Source of the DNA: Tichowtungia aerotolerans
GTDB taxonomy: Bacteria > Verrucomicrobiota > Kiritimatiellia > Kiritimatiellales > Tichowtungiaceae
Direction of reading: 5' to 3'
NCBI RefSeq assembly: GCF_009905215.1
Contig: NZ_CP047593.1
Coordinates: forward strand, 1,926,900 to 1,990,899
DNA length: 64,000 bases
Part shown: positions 12,304-18,660 of the stretch, piece after piece
Layout: every line of letters begins with the position of its first letter
Position numbering within the stretch: the stretch's first letter is position 1
Notes under the pieces: model-generated
Database searches by the model: none
The model's input: only the letters and a program-made list of their open reading frames with translations
Told to the model about the DNA's origin: nothing
Program-made: the position numbers and the translations under genes

Positions 12304-12334
12304 AAAAGCCCCCCCCCGCTGGGCGGCTTTTTTT
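12304..12334 (+). terminator. Terminator after the PurF-like gene
   Basis: AAAAGCC pairs with GGCTTTT around a C-rich loop, followed by a T run. It lies 24 nt after the stop codon. The arms are symmetrical, so it may also stop minus-strand transcription from the gene at 12459. Confidence 0.7.
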
Positions 12335-13345
12335 GATTGGATGAACAGGATGCTGGTCACAGCTCGGCTGCCGACCTTCTTTGCTTTTCCTGTGCCGGGA
12401 CAGCGCTTCACGTTTTATACGGAACTTGTCGGTTTTGTATCAGCTTGCGGAGCCGGGTTCAGCTTCTTGCTGTATGCAGACGACGGTATACGAGCATGGC
12501 CGCCCCGGAGAGTAAGATGAGCGAACAGGTTGTTGGTTCCGGGATGGTTTCCACAAACTTTGAGAAGACAAGCTGGTCTGCTCCGATGCCTAGAAACTTG
12601 ACGGTGGTCTGTTCGGTTCCATCCTCGTTTTGGAAGGTGAATCCATCGGGATCGAGCGCATCGGTGAGCGAGTATCCGTTCAGAACACCTCCGCTGAAGT
12701 GTGTCCAGTTCCAGTAATCGAAAGTACGGGCTCCTGTTGTGGTATAATAAGCCTCTAAGGTGCCATCAAGCGACAGGTTATACCAAAAGCCGTCTTCTGC
12801 GGCGATCCCCAGCCCCGCCGCGGGGTTCAGGCCATCCAGGTCTCCGCCGCCGGAGAACTGAGTCCACGAGTAATCCGCTACGAGCGCTCCGCCAACGCCG
12901 TAAAACGACGTGGTGTCGTCAGCATCCACAAGATAGTATCCATCGTCCATCAGATCCACGAACCCGGAATTGCCGACGATGTTCTCGCCGTTGTGCGGCC
13001 CGCCACGGAGGGGCTGGGTGGAAATGTCGGCCACTCCAACCAGAGTTGTATAATTGTACTGTTCTCCGAAACCGCCGGAATCTGCAATACGCAGTTCGCC
13101 GTCCTCAACTCCCAGAAAATTTGGGTGGGAGAGCATGGATTCCAGCGATGAACCGGCGAATTCATAGCGGCCTGATCCGGACAGTGTGTAGCGATTCATG
13201 TCGTAGGTGGCGGCTCCGGTAAATTCGTTGTAAGTAACAATCGACAACACTCCTGCATGGGACTGGGGGAGAGCCATCAGCAGGAGAGTCGGCACGAGCC
13301 TTCTGACATGCAGAAGGCCCGGTCCAAATGGATGTGCACGATTCC
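12327..13345. repeat. Direct repeat copy A of a duplicated secreted-protein gene and flank
   Basis: This stretch matches 17332-18510 in the same orientation. The match covers about 90 bp of 3' flank (12328-12418) and most of the coding region (12535 to about 13345), at roughly 90% identity or more by eye. The two copies differ by the insert between these blocks: 116 bp here (12419-12534) and 275 bp in the other copy (17421-17695), each encoding a different protein C-terminus. Confidence 0.75.
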
Positions 13346-13394
13346 TGTTCATCAAACAATTTGTCCTTATCTGCGTTCTTGTGTGTGATTTCAT
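12459..13394 (-). CDS. PEP-CTERM secreted protein (copy A)
   Basis: A 311-aa exported protein. ATG at 13394 has AAAGGA 6 nt upstream. An N-terminal export signal ends near LPQSHAG (about residue 47). The body is acidic and rich in Gly, Asp and Tyr, with repeated FSGG motifs and no known catalytic motif. The C-terminus IPEPTTCSLILLSGAAML followed by VYRRLHTARS is a PEP-CTERM signal (PEP motif, one hydrophobic helix, basic tail), which is recognised and processed by an exosortase during export to the cell surface or matrix. A close paralogue at 17425-18546 shares the body but ends differently right after IPEP. Function unknown. Confidence 0.85.
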   Translation of the reverse strand: MKSHTRTQIRTNCLMNRNRAHPFGPGLLHVRRLVPTLLLMALPQSHAGVLSIVTYNEFTGAATYDMNRYTLSGSGRYEFAGSSLESMLSHPNFLGVEDGELRIADSGGFGEQYNYTTLVGVADISTQPLRGGPHNGENIVGNSGFVDLMDDGYYLVDADDTTSFYGVGGALVADYSWTQFSGGGDLDGLNPAAGLGIAAEDGFWYNLSLDGTLEAYYTTTGARTFDYWNWTHFSGGVLNGYSLTDALDPDGFTFQNEDGTEQTTVKFLGIGADQLVFSKFVETIPEPTTCSLILLSGAAMLVYRRLHTARS

Positions 13395-13515
13395 TGGTTT
13401 CCTTTTTTAAATACATCGGAAAAACCCTTATCCAAAAGGCTGGAGAAAATTCCCGAAAGTTTTTTTGGGGGCTTTATAGAAGAAGAACCGGTGAGCTGTT
13501 TTGATTGTTCGCGAT

Positions 13516-13770
13516 TTATGAGAGGAAGAGGCGGCGGTATGCAAAAAGACCACCGCCGATATAGCCATTCGCCGAATTCTCGATAGCCGCGCCGTTCAGG
13601 ATCGACAGGGAATTACCCGAACTGTTGTTTCCCACAGCCACACCGTTAAAGGAATTTGTCTGCGCGACGTCGTAGACGGCAGCCGTGCCGTTTTCAAGCG
13701 TCAGACTGTTTTGAGCCGTCGCGACGTGCGTGCAGCCGGCCATAAATGCAATGAATAATTTTTTCATCAT
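13516..13770 (-). pseudogene. Internally deleted secreted PEP-CTERM-type gene
   Basis: An 84-codon frame from ATG 13770 (AAAGG just upstream). It has a signal peptide (KKLFIAFMAGCTHVATA), then about 50 residues of a beta-helix/autotransporter-like repeat (SLTLENGTAAVYDVA, GNSLSILNGAAIENSANGY), then abruptly GGGLFAYRRLFLS, which looks like the tail of a PEP-CTERM helix without the PEP motif or most of the helix. The simplest reading is a longer gene reduced by an in-frame deletion. It may still be made as a short secreted peptide. The motif at 13876-13892 upstream is shared with neighbouring secreted-protein genes. Confidence 0.55.
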
Positions 13771-13875
13771 AATACCTTTCTTATTCAAAACGAATCTAAG
13801 TTGTTACCAACAAGGAGAATCAGTATAAGCGTTTTTTTGAGAGAAAGGGGGTAAAAGAGGCGGGGTGTTATCGCG

Positions 13876-13900
13876 GTTTATGTGGCTATTTTGGTAAAAA
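13876..13900 (-). promoter_or_regulatory. Shared upstream element of secreted-protein genes
   Basis: Read on the minus strand the core is AAAATAGCCACATAAAC. Related sequences lie about 90-115 bp upstream of three other minus-strand secreted-protein genes: 14820-14843 (AAATAACCACGCAAA), 17244-17260 (CAGCCACACAAAT) and 18661-18684 (AAATAGCCACATAAA). Position and recurrence suggest an activator or sigma-factor site, possibly for a PEP-CTERM regulon. This is inference. Confidence 0.5.
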
Positions 13901-13960
13901 ACGGGGGGCGAGTTCGTTTGGGATGCCGAACCAAACCGTTTTTTGTGTTTTCTGCGGTGA

Positions 13961-13994
13961 ACCATGGCCGGTGCTGCCGACCACCGGCCATGGT
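13961..13994. repeat. Perfect 13-bp inverted repeat (hairpin)
   Basis: ACCATGGCCGGTG at 13961-13973 and CACCGGCCATGGT at 13982-13994 pair perfectly around an 8-nt loop. There is no T run, so it is not an ordinary intrinsic terminator; it could be a REP-like element or a regulator site. Confidence 0.7.
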
Positions 13995-14088
13995 CCAGAT
14001 TCCGCAACTGCCGCCGCGGAGGGCCAAAAACTCCCGGCAGGAGAAGAAGGCGCCGGAAGCCTTTGGGTTCTCCCGTGGCGGAATTTTT

Positions 14089-14727
14089 TTATGAAAGGCA
14101 GCAGACGAAGAGGTATTTTCTGCCGGTAAGGTCTGTTAACGTATGTCTTGCCGATTCGGGAACGGGTTTCACTGTGATTGTCGGGTTCAGCACATCATAA
14201 TGGTAGGTCTTATCCTTTTCCATGTTCCCGCTTGGGTCGAAAAAATATAGAGATGGACCGGCTACATAGGAAACCTGGAGGGCATTGAAATTCACGGTTA
14301 GATGATGGAGCAGTGTATATGGGTCCGGAGCCTGACCATTGGTTCCGCCGGAATAGCCGCTCTTAAAACAGATGCTTCCCAAATGAAACCAATACTCACC
14401 CAGACAGGATGGTCCGGGGAGTGAGAAAAAGTCGTAAATATCGGTAAATCCTTCAGAAATGCTTCCGCCGAACGAATATATTCCATCGAACCCATCCGAT
14501 CCTGAGAGAGTGAAGGAAATATCGCCAACGGCGCAGAAATCGACATGTTTATTATCATCAGCCGGTTGAACGGGAGTAGTGTCGAAAACGCCGGACCACA
14601 CAAACTGCGCGTTTTGCAACGGACCAAGCGGGCCGGAAAAAGATCCTGAATAGGTGATCTTAACCAGTTTAGCCTGAGTTGCAAAGGTCGCTGCAAAAAC
14701 AACAACAGCAAGGATATTCTTTTCCAC
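14089..14727 (-). CDS. Secreted protein (copy B) with eroded PEP-CTERM signal
   Basis: A 212-aa protein with an N-terminal signal peptide (EKNILAVVVFAATFATQA). The start is GTG at 14727, with AAAGGG upstream in the same context in which the paralogue at 16481-17149 has ATG. The body matches that paralogue: PLQNAQFVWSGVFDT, LSGSDGFDGIYSFGG, SGYSGGTNGQAPDPYTLL. The C-terminus reads KPVPESARHTLTDLTGRKYL and then FVCCLS. It keeps the start of a PEP motif (PES), but the hydrophobic helix and Arg tail are disrupted. The protein is probably exported but no longer handled by exosortase. No enzymatic motif seen. Confidence 0.72.
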   Translation of the reverse strand: MEKNILAVVVFAATFATQAKLVKITYSGSFSGPLGPLQNAQFVWSGVFDTTPVQPADDNKHVDFCAVGDISFTLSGSDGFDGIYSFGGSISEGFTDIYDFFSLPGPSCLGEYWFHLGSICFKSGYSGGTNGQAPDPYTLLHHLTVNFNALQVSYVAGPSLYFFDPSGNMEKDKTYHYDVLNPTITVKPVPESARHTLTDLTGRKYLFVCCLS

Positions 14728-15257
14728 GCTCTTTCCCTTTATTGAATGAAAGCAATTGATAACAAAGGATGGATGTGTTCCTGGGAGAAGGGAATGGAAG
14801 TCGCGAGGTATTTACGCAGTTTGCGTGGTTATTTCAGCGAAAACGAGCTGACGGGAGGGGCGGAAATAGATGCGGTCGGGTTCACTCGAACTGTCGGGCG
14901 AAGAAGTCGAAGTCGATCAGGGGAAGCCGCTCGGCTCCGGGATCATTCTGTCTGCACCGACTTTCTTCGCAAAGGCCAGAGGGAGCCAGACAACCGCTTC
15001 TTTTTCTGAAGGGATAACAGGATACGGGCAAAGCTCCGTCATCGCCCACCGTTGAACTGCTGCAGTTCTCCGGAGCCGCGCACGGTTTTTCTCAACTCGT
15101 TGAAAAAAGAGATGCGCGGAGGTCCAGCTTTTTTCCAATGGCTGAATACGCAGGCGCTGGCTGGAGTTAAGGTGGTGGAAAACGGTTTTTTGAAAAAATA
15201 ACCCGAACGTTTTCCGTATTATGTTTTAATATGTAGACAGAACGGAGGTTCATTAAG
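14728..15257. other. 530-bp region without a confident gene
   Basis: Contains the upstream element for copy B (14820-14843) and several overlapping short frames on both strands. One plus-strand stretch near 15050-15165 (VELLQFSGAAHGFSQLVEKR) faintly resembles the C-terminus of an alpha/beta hydrolase, but no continuous gene can be assembled. It may be a gene remnant. The last 70 bp hold an AT-rich promoter-like stretch (TATTATGTTTTAATATG) before the META gene. Confidence 0.4.
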
Positions 15258-16295
15258 ATGAACGTGTTTAGAAATGGATTTCTGGCGGGTATGGTCGCCC
15301 TGCTTCTGCAGGGATGTTCCACAATACCACAAAACAGTGTTTACTGGGTGAGGGGCTTTAAAGTGGAGGGTTCCGCCGGCGCGGGAAAAATGAAAAGCCT
15401 GCAGGTCTACAGAGGCGATCACCTTGCCGATGCGACGTGGGAAAATTTTCACGCCCTGATCGCCGGGTTTGACTTTGAGCCCGGGTTCCTGAAGAAGATT
15501 GAGGTGAAGGAAGAAAACCTGGCGCTTGAAACGTTGCCCGCCGATACGTCTTCAATTAAATATACTCTTGTTCAGGAATTGGAGAGACTGGCGGATCCTT
15601 GTTTTGAGCTCGAAGGCGATTGGATTCTTGCATCGATCAGTTCGGGGCCGGTTAACCGGATGGTTAAGCTTCCGACGTTAAGCCTGTCGCTGAATGAAAT
15701 GCGGATCAGCGGTTCGGGCGGGTGCAATCATTATTCGGCGGCTGTCAGCAGGTTGACCGACAGCAATATTATGCTGGGTCCGGTTGCTGCCACGAAGCGT
15801 GCTTGTGTAAACAAAAATATTGAGGCCGATTATCTGGCAAATCTGAATAGAGTAAAACAATACGCTCTGGTTGATTCCAGACTGGTTTTCTCAGACGAGA
15901 AAGGAACGGAGCTGCTGGCGTTTATCAAAAAAAGTGAGCCGCCTGCCGATCCGAGACTGCATGATGTCTGGGGACTTCTTCGCATTGCCGGCAAAACCGT
16001 CAGCCCGAAGCAAGGGCCGCATCTGGAAATCAACCTGACTGACAAACAGGTGTTCGGGAATGACGGGTGCAATGATTTCCGGGGAGCCATCGAACATGCA
16101 GCCGGCAGTTCAATTACATTGGGCACAATCGCTTCAACCCGGAAAATGTGTATGGATATGGAGGTGCCTGATGCGTTCAGCAAAGCTTTGGGGAATATGG
16201 CAGGCAAAGCTGTAAGTTATAAGATTTCCGGATTAACCCTCGTCTTTCTGGATGCCGACGGCAACGAGTTGCTGGCGTTTAAAAAAGCAGATTAG
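15258..16295 (+). CDS. Lipoprotein with DUF4377-like and two META (HslJ-like) domains
   Basis: A 345-aa exported lipoprotein with lipobox LLLQGC near residue 20. After it comes a DUF4377-like segment (about 28-95, VYRGDHLADATWENFHALIA), then two META domains at about 110-225 and 230-345. Each META domain carries the GGCN or DGCN signature and a later Cys (GSGGCNHYSA with ATKRACV; GNDGCNDFRG with STRKMCM) and ends ELLAF. META-domain proteins such as HslJ are linked to stress or antibiotic tolerance, but no biochemical role is established. The GGAGG site is about 10 nt before the ATG. It interrupts a block of minus-strand paralogues. Confidence 0.85.
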   Translation: MNVFRNGFLAGMVALLLQGCSTIPQNSVYWVRGFKVEGSAGAGKMKSLQVYRGDHLADATWENFHALIAGFDFEPGFLKKIEVKEENLALETLPADTSSIKYTLVQELERLADPCFELEGDWILASISSGPVNRMVKLPTLSLSLNEMRISGSGGCNHYSAAVSRLTDSNIMLGPVAATKRACVNKNIEADYLANLNRVKQYALVDSRLVFSDEKGTELLAFIKKSEPPADPRLHDVWGLLRIAGKTVSPKQGPHLEINLTDKQVFGNDGCNDFRGAIEHAAGSSITLGTIASTRKMCMDMEVPDAFSKALGNMAGKAVSYKISGLTLVFLDADGNELLAFKKAD

Positions 16296-16297
16296 AG

Positions 16298-16312
16298 TCG
16301 CCCGGCGGGCGA
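16298..16312 (+). terminator. Small hairpin after the META gene
   Basis: TCGCCC-GGC-GGGCGA is a perfect 6-bp stem directly after the stop codon, followed by an AT-rich but not T-only stretch. It is a weak terminator candidate. Confidence 0.4.
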
Positions 16313-16414
16313 ATTTAATCTGATGTGAGAAAAGGCTGCGGTTTTTGATAAGCGCTTGGGTTTTCGGTTGCAGGAGAAGAAGAGTAATCATTCCGCCTTA
16401 ACACTCGAACAGCC

Positions 16415-16452
16415 AAAAACTCCTGGGAAATAAGGAAAACCCAGAAGTTTTT
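16415..16452 (-). terminator. Terminator of the copy B' gene
   Basis: AAAAACTCCTGGG (16415-16427) pairs with CCCAGAAGTTTTT (16440-16452) at 12 of 13 positions. Read on the minus strand it ends in a T run about 30 nt after the stop of the gene at 16481. Confidence 0.65.
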
Positions 16453-16480
16453 GGGGTTCTTCAATGAGGAGAACCAAAGT

Positions 16481-17149
16481 TTATGGAAGGAAGCGGCGGT
16501 CGTGGCGCCGGAAGAAGAAGAGCCCTCCGCTGGCGAGGCCGATTAAAGTGAGTGTCGCCGGTTCGGGAACCGCCTCTACTGTTATCGCCGGATTCATTAC
16601 AGTATACATGTATATGATAGGATTTTCTGGGTCATGAGCAGAAGGGCTGGAGAGCAAGAGCTCGTCCATATACAAAAACCGGGAGTCATTAAAATCCAGA
16701 GTCAGATTGTTGAGCAGAGTATTGGGGTCCGGCGCCAGCCCATCGGTTCCCCCGGAATAACCGGCACTGAAATAGGTGCCTCCTGAAGTAAGAGTGTACT
16801 CTCCTAAGGACAAAGGCCCGTAGAATAATAAGAATACATCATATTCTGGATAGAAGTACTCGTTGATCTGCCCGGTAAAGGAATATGTTCCGTCGAGACC
16901 ATCCGATCCTGATACGGTGACGGACACATTATCAACGGCATAGAAGGCTGCGGCATATATATTATTTTGAGCGGGAGAGGTGTCGAATAAGCCGGACCAC
17001 TCGAACTGCGCATTCTGCAGGGGCCCGTTCCCGGGCCATTCATTGCCTGTCTTATTAAAAAAAGTTCCTGAGAAAGTGACCTCAACCAGTTCCGCCAGAG
17101 TTGACAGAGCTGTAAAAAAAACGGCCATGACGAGGATCTGCTTTTTCAT
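16481..17149 (-). CDS. PEP-CTERM secreted protein (copy B')
   Basis: A 222-aa protein from ATG 17149 (AAGGA 6 nt upstream), with signal peptide MKKQILVMAVFFTALSTLA. The body is shared with 14089-14727 (PLQNAQFEWSGLFDTSP, SGSDGLDGTYSFTGQ, SAGYSGGTDGLAPDPNTLL). The C-terminus VPEPATLTLIGLASGGLFFF then RRHDRRFLP is an intact PEP-CTERM signal. It is predicted to be exported and anchored or released by exosortase; no catalytic function is visible. The upstream element at 17244-17260 is shared with neighbouring genes. No exosortase gene is in the window. Confidence 0.85.
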   Translation of the reverse strand: MKKQILVMAVFFTALSTLAELVEVTFSGTFFNKTGNEWPGNGPLQNAQFEWSGLFDTSPAQNNIYAAAFYAVDNVSVTVSGSDGLDGTYSFTGQINEYFYPEYDVFLLFYGPLSLGEYTLTSGGTYFSAGYSGGTDGLAPDPNTLLNNLTLDFNDSRFLYMDELLLSSPSAHDPENPIIYMYTVMNPAITVEAVPEPATLTLIGLASGGLFFFRRHDRRFLP

Positions 17150-17331
17150 GCTCTTCCTTTCTTTGTTCAACAAGAGCGATCAAACAACTGATGTTGAATG
17201 TTTTTCAGGGAAAAGAGGATGGGAGATGCGGGGAATTGGTGTGATTTGTGTGGCTGCTTGCCTGTAGACGGACATACAGCATTCCCGGCAGAGACTTCCC
17301 TCAAAACACGAAGATTGCGCAACGACGGTTG

Positions 17332-18510
17332 TTTTTTGATGGAATGAACAGGATGCTGGTTACAGCTCGGCTGCCGACCTTTTTACTTTTTCTGTGCCGG
17401 GGCAGAGCTTCACGTTTTATTACTTTACTGCATTTTATCCAAACTGAAGAATTTCTGATCCTGATCCGCCTTTACATAAATAATGATATTTGAGCCGGAC
17501 GCTGTGGAATAGCTGAGGTTTGTTTCGATGAACGGATCCAGCCCGTTTGTTGACTGTCCAACTACGCTCCATGCGGTATTGGTTGTCAGCTCTTGTGCGG
17601 TTTTCAGATAAAAGAGTTCCGGGTTGTTACTATTGACTTCCAACTTCATCACTGTCGATGAAGCGGAAGAGATCCCCATAAATTCCGCCGTGTCCGGTTC
17701 CGGGATGGTTTCCACAAACTTTGAGAAGACAAGCTGGTCTGCTCCGATGCCTAGAAACTTGACGGTGGTCTGTTCGGTTCCATCCTCGTTCTGGAAGGTG
17801 AATCCATCGGGATCGAGCGCATCGGTGAGCGAGTGTCCGTTCAGAACACCTCCGCTGAAGTGTGTCCATGTCCAATAATCGAAAATACGGGCTCCTGTTG
17901 CGGTATAATAAGCCTCCAGGGTGCCATCGAGCGACAGGTTGTACCAAAGGCCGTCTTCTGCGGCGATCCCCAGCCCCGCCGCGGGGTTCAGGCCATCCAG
18001 GTCTCCGCCGCCGGAGAACTGAGTCCACGAGTAATCCGCGGCGAGCACCCCGCCAACACCGTAAAACGACGTGGTATTGTCAGCATCCACCAGATAGTAT
18101 CCATCGTCCATCATGTCCACAAACCCGGAATTGCCGACGATGTTTTCTCCGTTGTGCGGCTCGCCGCTGAGGGGCTGGGTGGAAATATCGGCCACTCCGA
18201 TCAGGCTCACATAACTGTACTGTTCTCCGGAACCGCTGGAGTCTGCAATACGCAGTTCGCCGTCCTCAACCCCCAGAAAATTCGGATGGGAGAGCATGGA
18301 TTCCAACGATGCTCCGGCGAATTCATAGCCGCCTGATCCGGACAGTGTGTAGCGGTTCATGTCGTAGGTGGCGGCTCCGGTAAATTCGTTGTAGGTAACA
18401 ATCGACATCATCCCTGCATGGGACTGGGACAGCATCATCAGCAGGGCGGCAGGCACGAGTTTTCTGACATGCAGGAGACCCGGTCCAAATGGATGCGTGC
18501 AATGTGTCCT
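17332..18510. repeat. Direct repeat copy A' of the duplicated secreted-protein gene and flank
   Basis: The homologous partner of 12327-13345. The 3' flank (17332-17420) and coding body (17696 to about 18510) match copy A, but the 275 bp in between encode a different C-terminus. Confidence 0.75.
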
Positions 18511-18546
18511 GTTCTCCAAACAGTTGGCTTTTGTCCGATCTTTCAT
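17425..18546 (-). CDS. Secreted paralogue (copy A') with non-PEP-CTERM C-terminus
   Basis: A 373-aa protein from ATG 18546; the longer frame to 18594 adds a polar leader before the export signal. Residues up to about 280 are nearly the same as copy A (12459-13394), including LDPDGFTFQNEDGTEQTTV and VETIPEP. Immediately after IPEP the sequence changes to an approximately 92-residue beta-rich tail (VNSNNPELFYLKTAQELTT, ending KFFSLDKMQ), a type of C-terminus common on secreted PVC proteins. The protein therefore lost its exosortase anchor and is likely soluble or held by another system. Function unknown. Confidence 0.82.
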   Translation of the reverse strand: MKDRTKANCLENRTHCTHPFGPGLLHVRKLVPAALLMMLSQSHAGMMSIVTYNEFTGAATYDMNRYTLSGSGGYEFAGASLESMLSHPNFLGVEDGELRIADSSGSGEQYSYVSLIGVADISTQPLSGEPHNGENIVGNSGFVDMMDDGYYLVDADNTTSFYGVGGVLAADYSWTQFSGGGDLDGLNPAAGLGIAAEDGLWYNLSLDGTLEAYYTATGARIFDYWTWTHFSGGVLNGHSLTDALDPDGFTFQNEDGTEQTTVKFLGIGADQLVFSKFVETIPEPDTAEFMGISSASSTVMKLEVNSNNPELFYLKTAQELTTNTAWSVVGQSTNGLDPFIETNLSYSTASGSNIIIYVKADQDQKFFSLDKMQ

Positions 18547-18660
18547 GGTCTCACCGTCTTTTTTTACAGTTTCGTTTGAATACCTTATTTCCACGAGCAG
18601 GGGCTAATATAGGCCCTTTGCTCGAGAAAAAGAGATGAGAGCCATGAGGAACCGTTGTGC

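Follow-up and report, generated by a model that had tools for sequence, protein, structure and literature searches.

A Duplicated Secreted-Protein Gene of Tichowtungia aerotolerans with Two Unrelated C-Terminal Ends, and Similar Twins in the Kiritimatiellales

Introduction

Knowledge of PEP-CTERM proteins goes back to 2006. In the 'choice-of-anchor' families (NCBI/TIGRFAMs), the C-terminal anchor varies among proteins that share one type of body; the anchors are known ones, and the comparison is across species. The C-terminal domains (CTDs) of Type IX secretion are short Ig-like domains that end many unrelated secreted proteins. Homologous pairs in which one member has PEP-CTERM and the other lacks it were described by Haft et al. 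(2006, PMC1569441), together with rapid paralogous expansion.

In this study, we focus on a stretch of 64,000 nucleotides of the Tichowtungia aerotolerans genome (the window), in which two paralogous genes, A and A', encode one secreted body followed by two unrelated ends (Table 1). The end of A is PEP-CTERM-like, and that of A' is a folded domain that also ends many other secreted proteins of this genome. The same opposition between a PEP-CTERM gene and a tail-bearing paralogue recurs in the genomes of related bacteria that degrade polysaccharides.

Table 1. Features of the A/A' cluster, in positions of the window.
Feature	Position	Strand	Details and basis
Gene A: secreted body + PEP-CTERM-like end IPEPTTCSLILLSGAAMLVYRRLHTARS	12459..13394	-	311 aa; ORF, PEP-CTERM scores
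Gene A': body as in A + Ig-like C-terminal domain	17425..18594	-	ORF, alignment
Body block of A, homologous to A'	12535..13361	-	831-bp match, 91.1% (blastn)
Body block of A', homologous to A	17696..18525	-	last 95 bp up to the junction identical to A
A-only segment: PEP-CTERM codons past IPEP, stop codon, ~40 bp of 3' UTR	12419..12534	-	116 bp; gap between homologous blocks
A'-only segment: ~90-aa beta-sandwich tail + stop codon	17421..17695	-	275 bp; profile match 109 bits, AlphaFold2 model pLDDT 93.6
3' flank of A, homologous to A' flank	12329..12418	-	90-bp match, 91.1% (blastn)
3' flank of A', homologous to A flank	17332..17420	-	90-bp match with 12329-12418; flank alignment score
C': PEP-CTERM protein adjoining A', paralogue of C	16481..17173	-	PF07589 26.9 bits, alignment
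C: paralogue of C', degenerate PEP-CTERM region VPESARHTLTDLTGRKYLFVCCLS	14089..14727	-	alignment

Borders of the A/A' Pair

When the A region is compared with the A' region by blastn, two matching blocks are found and none further (831 bp and 90 bp, both at 91.1%), and they surround C-terminal segments of 116 bp and 275 bp that are unrelated, their longest common stretch being 7 bases. This is the layout that the first-pass annotation of this DNA had proposed, and its coordinates prove exact to the base. It had also placed the switch point at the IPEP codons, as we find too, with a single difference inside these codons, namely the third base of the last proline codon. The nucleotide alignment has sharp borders, with no gradual loss of identity, and the 95-bp run that directly precedes the junction is identical in A and A' (P = 0.00024, permutation within codon positions). 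Beyond the unmatched segments, the alignment of the two 3' flanks scores 138, for a shuffled maximum of 21.

The bodies of A and A' share 87% amino acid identity, and the length of A' is 389 aa if the start is a GTG or 373 aa if it is the ATG at 18546. The codon-aligned bodies give a dN of 0.042, a dS of 0.198 and a dN/dS of 0.21, so that both bodies are under purifying selection; both genes are real. Promoter and terminator scans returned hits at chance level only.

The C-terminus of A has the layout PEP, hydrophobic stretch, RR (basic cluster). It scores 12.7 bits against TIGR02595 and 14.4 bits against PF07589, under the respective curated cut-offs of 16 and 20.7, and 24.7 bits on a profile of PEP-CTERM proteins from its own genome and relatives that counts A among its rows. 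The genome encodes one clear exosortase (PF09721, 176.8 bits, cut-off 25.7), and seven of its proteins match PEP-CTERM above the cut-off of Pfam. In A', the sequence continues after the motif as IPEPDTAEFMG... into the folded domain, and no PEP-CTERM model of Pfam or NCBIfam matches the protein. The persistence of IPEP in A' without the hydrophobic and basic parts suggests that PEP-CTERM is the older end and that A' formerly carried one; the motif could also have reached A' through gene conversion from A. It is plausible that surface anchoring differs between A and A'.

The cluster contains a second pair of paralogues, C and C', in which C' retains PEP-CTERM while C has no match to the PEP-CTERM models of Pfam and NCBIfam. 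At ~13510-13770 (- strand), a short ORF starts in a signal-like manner, and its end (GGLFAYRRLFLS) resembles the latter half of a PEP-CTERM, with the PEP missing; this ORF is probably an internally deleted remnant. A META/DUF4377 protein is encoded on the opposite strand, at 15258-16295 (+), between the two paralogue pairs.

The Domain That Ends A'

The tail of A' is an Ig-like beta-sandwich of ~90 aa, modeled by AlphaFold2 at a pLDDT of 93.6 (the full-length model of A', at a pLDDT of 38, was unused). It scores 109.3 bits over positions 2-91 of the 93 in the tail profile, and 3 residues follow the match; this profile was built in this analysis with A' as one of its rows, yet a plain query with A' alone recovered the other copies. 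The first-pass annotation had seen here a soluble-type tail, a description that has to give way to that of a conserved domain with a confident fold, which ends many unrelated secreted proteins. The identity of the domain also bears on a neutral decay, in which A' would have lost a working PEP-CTERM and gained a random open frame. Decay does occur in this cluster, as the degenerate PEP-CTERM end of the neighbor C attests, but a conserved domain with such a profile score and such a confident fold refutes a random-frame origin of the tail, and we find neutral decay scarcely credible.

The genome of the window contains 11 strong copies of the tail, on secreted proteins with unrelated bodies. A' and nine others carry it within 3 residues of the protein end, and one carries it internally. 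None of these 11 tails has a Pfam or NCBIfam entry. Strong copies are limited to this order, the Kiritimatiellales, and to a few members of its class. Two further tail types are distantly related to that of A' (hhalign probabilities of 94-97%), and one of these sister types has ~40 strong copies in the window's genome. This genome holds ~50 copies of a C-terminal domain superfamily without a Pfam or NCBIfam model. Fold searches with the tail return generic Ig/FnIII-like beta-sandwich matches only, the best with a Z of 5.9, which give no functional clue, and a sequence search of the PDB gave nothing convincing. The superfamily so revealed, large and unnamed, may act as a tether, bind glycans or direct sorting.

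The last of these possibilities can be put in a stronger form: the tail of A' would itself be the sorting signal, and the twins would be anchored or exported by two systems, by analogy with the T9SS C-terminal domains of Bacteroidota. This proposal concerns function and is compatible with either of the accounts of origin given below. It draws on the extreme C-terminal position of the domain, its ~90 aa, its Ig-like fold and its presence within a single genome on dozens of secreted proteins with no relation to each other, as well as on the ~30 twins, in which either the domain or PEP-CTERM occupies this position. The position is not a strict one, however. Across the strict cases, 42 of 48 proteins end at most 5 residues after the domain, and in the other 6 it is internal, with 200-800 aa of further sequence behind it, which points more to a folded working domain than to a sorting signal alone. 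Moreover, the 11 tails scanned match no sorting-domain model, and SprA (SprA_N), taken as the mark of the T9SS machinery, was not found in the genome, a search to which the control genomes were equally silent. We therefore regard the tail as a sorting signal as doubtful, without being far-fetched. In the six internal cases (L283, L266, L267, L268, L273 and L290), the sequence that follows the tail is enzyme-like, and the gene of a tail protein may have fused with the one downstream.

Twins in Related Genomes

The pair is no local oddity: ~30 PEP-CTERM genes in six genomes have an adjoining paralogue that ends in the tail superfamily. Starting from the tail, 17 of 48 tail genes (A' included) are accompanied, on the same strand and at a distance of 30 bp to 4 kb, by a PEP-CTERM gene whose body is homologous, and these 17 are distributed over six genomes and 13 body families. 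One genome (G035) contributes 9 of its 14 tail genes for an expectation of 0.7 (P = 3e-9), pair statistics of this kind resting on draft genomes and rough expectations. The window's own genome has two further twins (L420 and L423).

A control set was assembled from loci chosen by PEP-CTERM alone and without a strict tail gene, and it comprises 37 PEP-CTERM genes. A homologous neighbor was found for 19 of them, and 13 of these neighbors end in the wider tail superfamily (L423 weakly, with an E of 0.02) according to profiles made solely from non-partner proteins of the window's genome. As for the remaining neighbors, three are truncated at the end of a contig, one finishes in a different way, and one has a tail type recognized by eye only. 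A single pair of PEP-CTERM with PEP-CTERM was encountered (L390), and it has itself a tail-bearing neighbor. Some 30 twins that oppose PEP-CTERM to one type of domain, and almost never repeat PEP-CTERM, constitute a natural control for the role of exosortase processing.

In 23 of 30 twins, the homology between partners ends at most 7 residues from the PEP motif; in the other seven, A/A' among them, the local alignment extends ~11-20 residues into the PEP-CTERM, a part in which the DNA of A and A' is unmatched. The tail partner is usually the longer one, often with a doubled body, as seen in 17 of 48 tail proteins in a half-against-half test, and A' departs from this pattern with a single body, the same as in A. 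A locus of another genome (L271, in G025) shows three adjoining tail-domain genes and one PEP-CTERM gene. Among the 16 pairs compared, A/A' is the only one with a matching 3' flank, and for this reason it is probably the youngest visible twin, with the best preserved borders.

Origin of the Pair

We favor, as reasonably probable, a duplication followed by a domain-precise replacement of the tail, giving one body in two versions with different surface fates. One PEP-CTERM surface-protein gene would have been duplicated with its 3' flank to give A and A', and the stretch of A' that runs from past the IPEP codons to ~40 bp beyond the old stop would then have been exchanged for the DNA of an Ig-like domain, both genes remaining functional. 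Gene conversion probably held the bodies similar up to the edge of the unmatched tail. With an exosortase processing signal on A and a folded tail on A', the same probably glycan-related body would be shown in two ways, and the twin design would have been built or retained many times in the Kiritimatiellales. The evolutionary part of this account is well supported, with the duplication, the sharp junctions, the identity of the domain, the purifying selection and the recurrence as its demonstrated elements; the functional part (two destinations, binding of glycans), the conversion and the direction of the swap we infer.

The same features could be imitated by an old two-tailed pair whose bodies, and perhaps whose 3' flanks, underwent conversion repeatedly and so came to mimic a recent duplication and swap. 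The identical 95-bp run is conversion-like and stops exactly at the junction, many pairs of related genomes have divergent bodies, and the tails nearest to that of A' (~36-47% protein identity) are not those of its own genome, in which none is close, but those of G035, which represents another family of the order (moderate support, 88/89). Against such an age, the match of the 3' flanks beyond an unmatched tail, which no other pair has, is most simply explained if the two genes descend as a whole from one ancestor, and within the order the body is without a relative, so an old shared pair would have left no trace. We consider the old pair rather unlikely.

Indeed, the search for relatives of the A/A' body came back empty from 43 genomes of the order, from a wider set of 194, from a scan of genome contigs and from viral contigs, and the ancestral tail is for this reason unreadable from an outgroup. 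The better weak matches to the body among relatives were rejected, as they involve the PEP-CTERM end alone. The phosphoglycerate kinase of the host has its relatives in Pontiellaceae and other Kiritimatiellales.

The first-pass annotation had spoken of a cassette exchange. Its evolutionary half stands: a C-terminal module was exchanged, with sharp borders on both sides, and an exosortase-type signal gave way to another end. A switchable event is another matter, and a programmed or phase-variable C-terminal cassette, for which the precise borders and the matching sequence on either side of the variable piece could speak, appears very improbable. A DNA search of the whole genome with the A' tail returned the tail itself and the flanks common to A, with no second copy and no silent cassette that could act as a reservoir or donor; inverted repeats were looked for at the A/A' junctions and none were found; and the nearest tails reach only ~36-47% identity in protein.

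Genomic Context and Possible Function

Ten hand-picked neighbors were scanned, and most proved to be polysaccharide-degrading or related enzymes (sulfatases, NAGLU, GH38, esterases, C5-epimerase and beta-helix proteins); LamG or HpiC1-like domains occur in some of the partner bodies. These neighbors and domains suggest that the twins, whose signal peptides were judged by eye, are glycan-related surface proteins made in two versions. One may go further and suppose that Kiritimatiellales possess an undescribed surface system, with the tail superfamily as its module for targeting or attachment, and that their polysaccharide loci routinely encode each body twice, one traveling via exosortase and one via a second route; this is a tentative idea, on the unlikely side.

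Comparison with Known Systems

The literature search found no text that links PEP-CTERM with Kiritimatiella-type names or with tandem-duplicate terms, and neither a defined replacement domain nor the twin rule was found in the literature searched, an absence that is no proof. As in SusD and the surface glycan-binding proteins of the utilization loci of Bacteroidota, the proteins described here are secreted, beta-rich, probably glycan-binding and encoded beside polysaccharide-degrading enzymes, but no family model of theirs matched above the cut-off. The resemblance to the Type IX secretion CTDs (Por_Secre_tail, TIGR04183; PF18962) lies in a short, Ig-like, C-terminal domain present on many secreted proteins; unlike them, the 11 tails scanned are without a match to the CTD models of Pfam and NCBIfam, and some copies are internal. 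With the 'choice-of-anchor' families, our twins share a type of body common to proteins with different C-terminal ends, but here both ends are on paralogues of one locus, and one of them is an undescribed domain. The closest system remains that of PEP-CTERM and exosortase (TIGR02595, PF07589, EpsH; PMC1569441), as A ends in such a module and the genome has both an exosortase and such proteins. It differs in that the partner has here, at the same place, a defined beta-sandwich, and this repeatedly, in neighboring twins.
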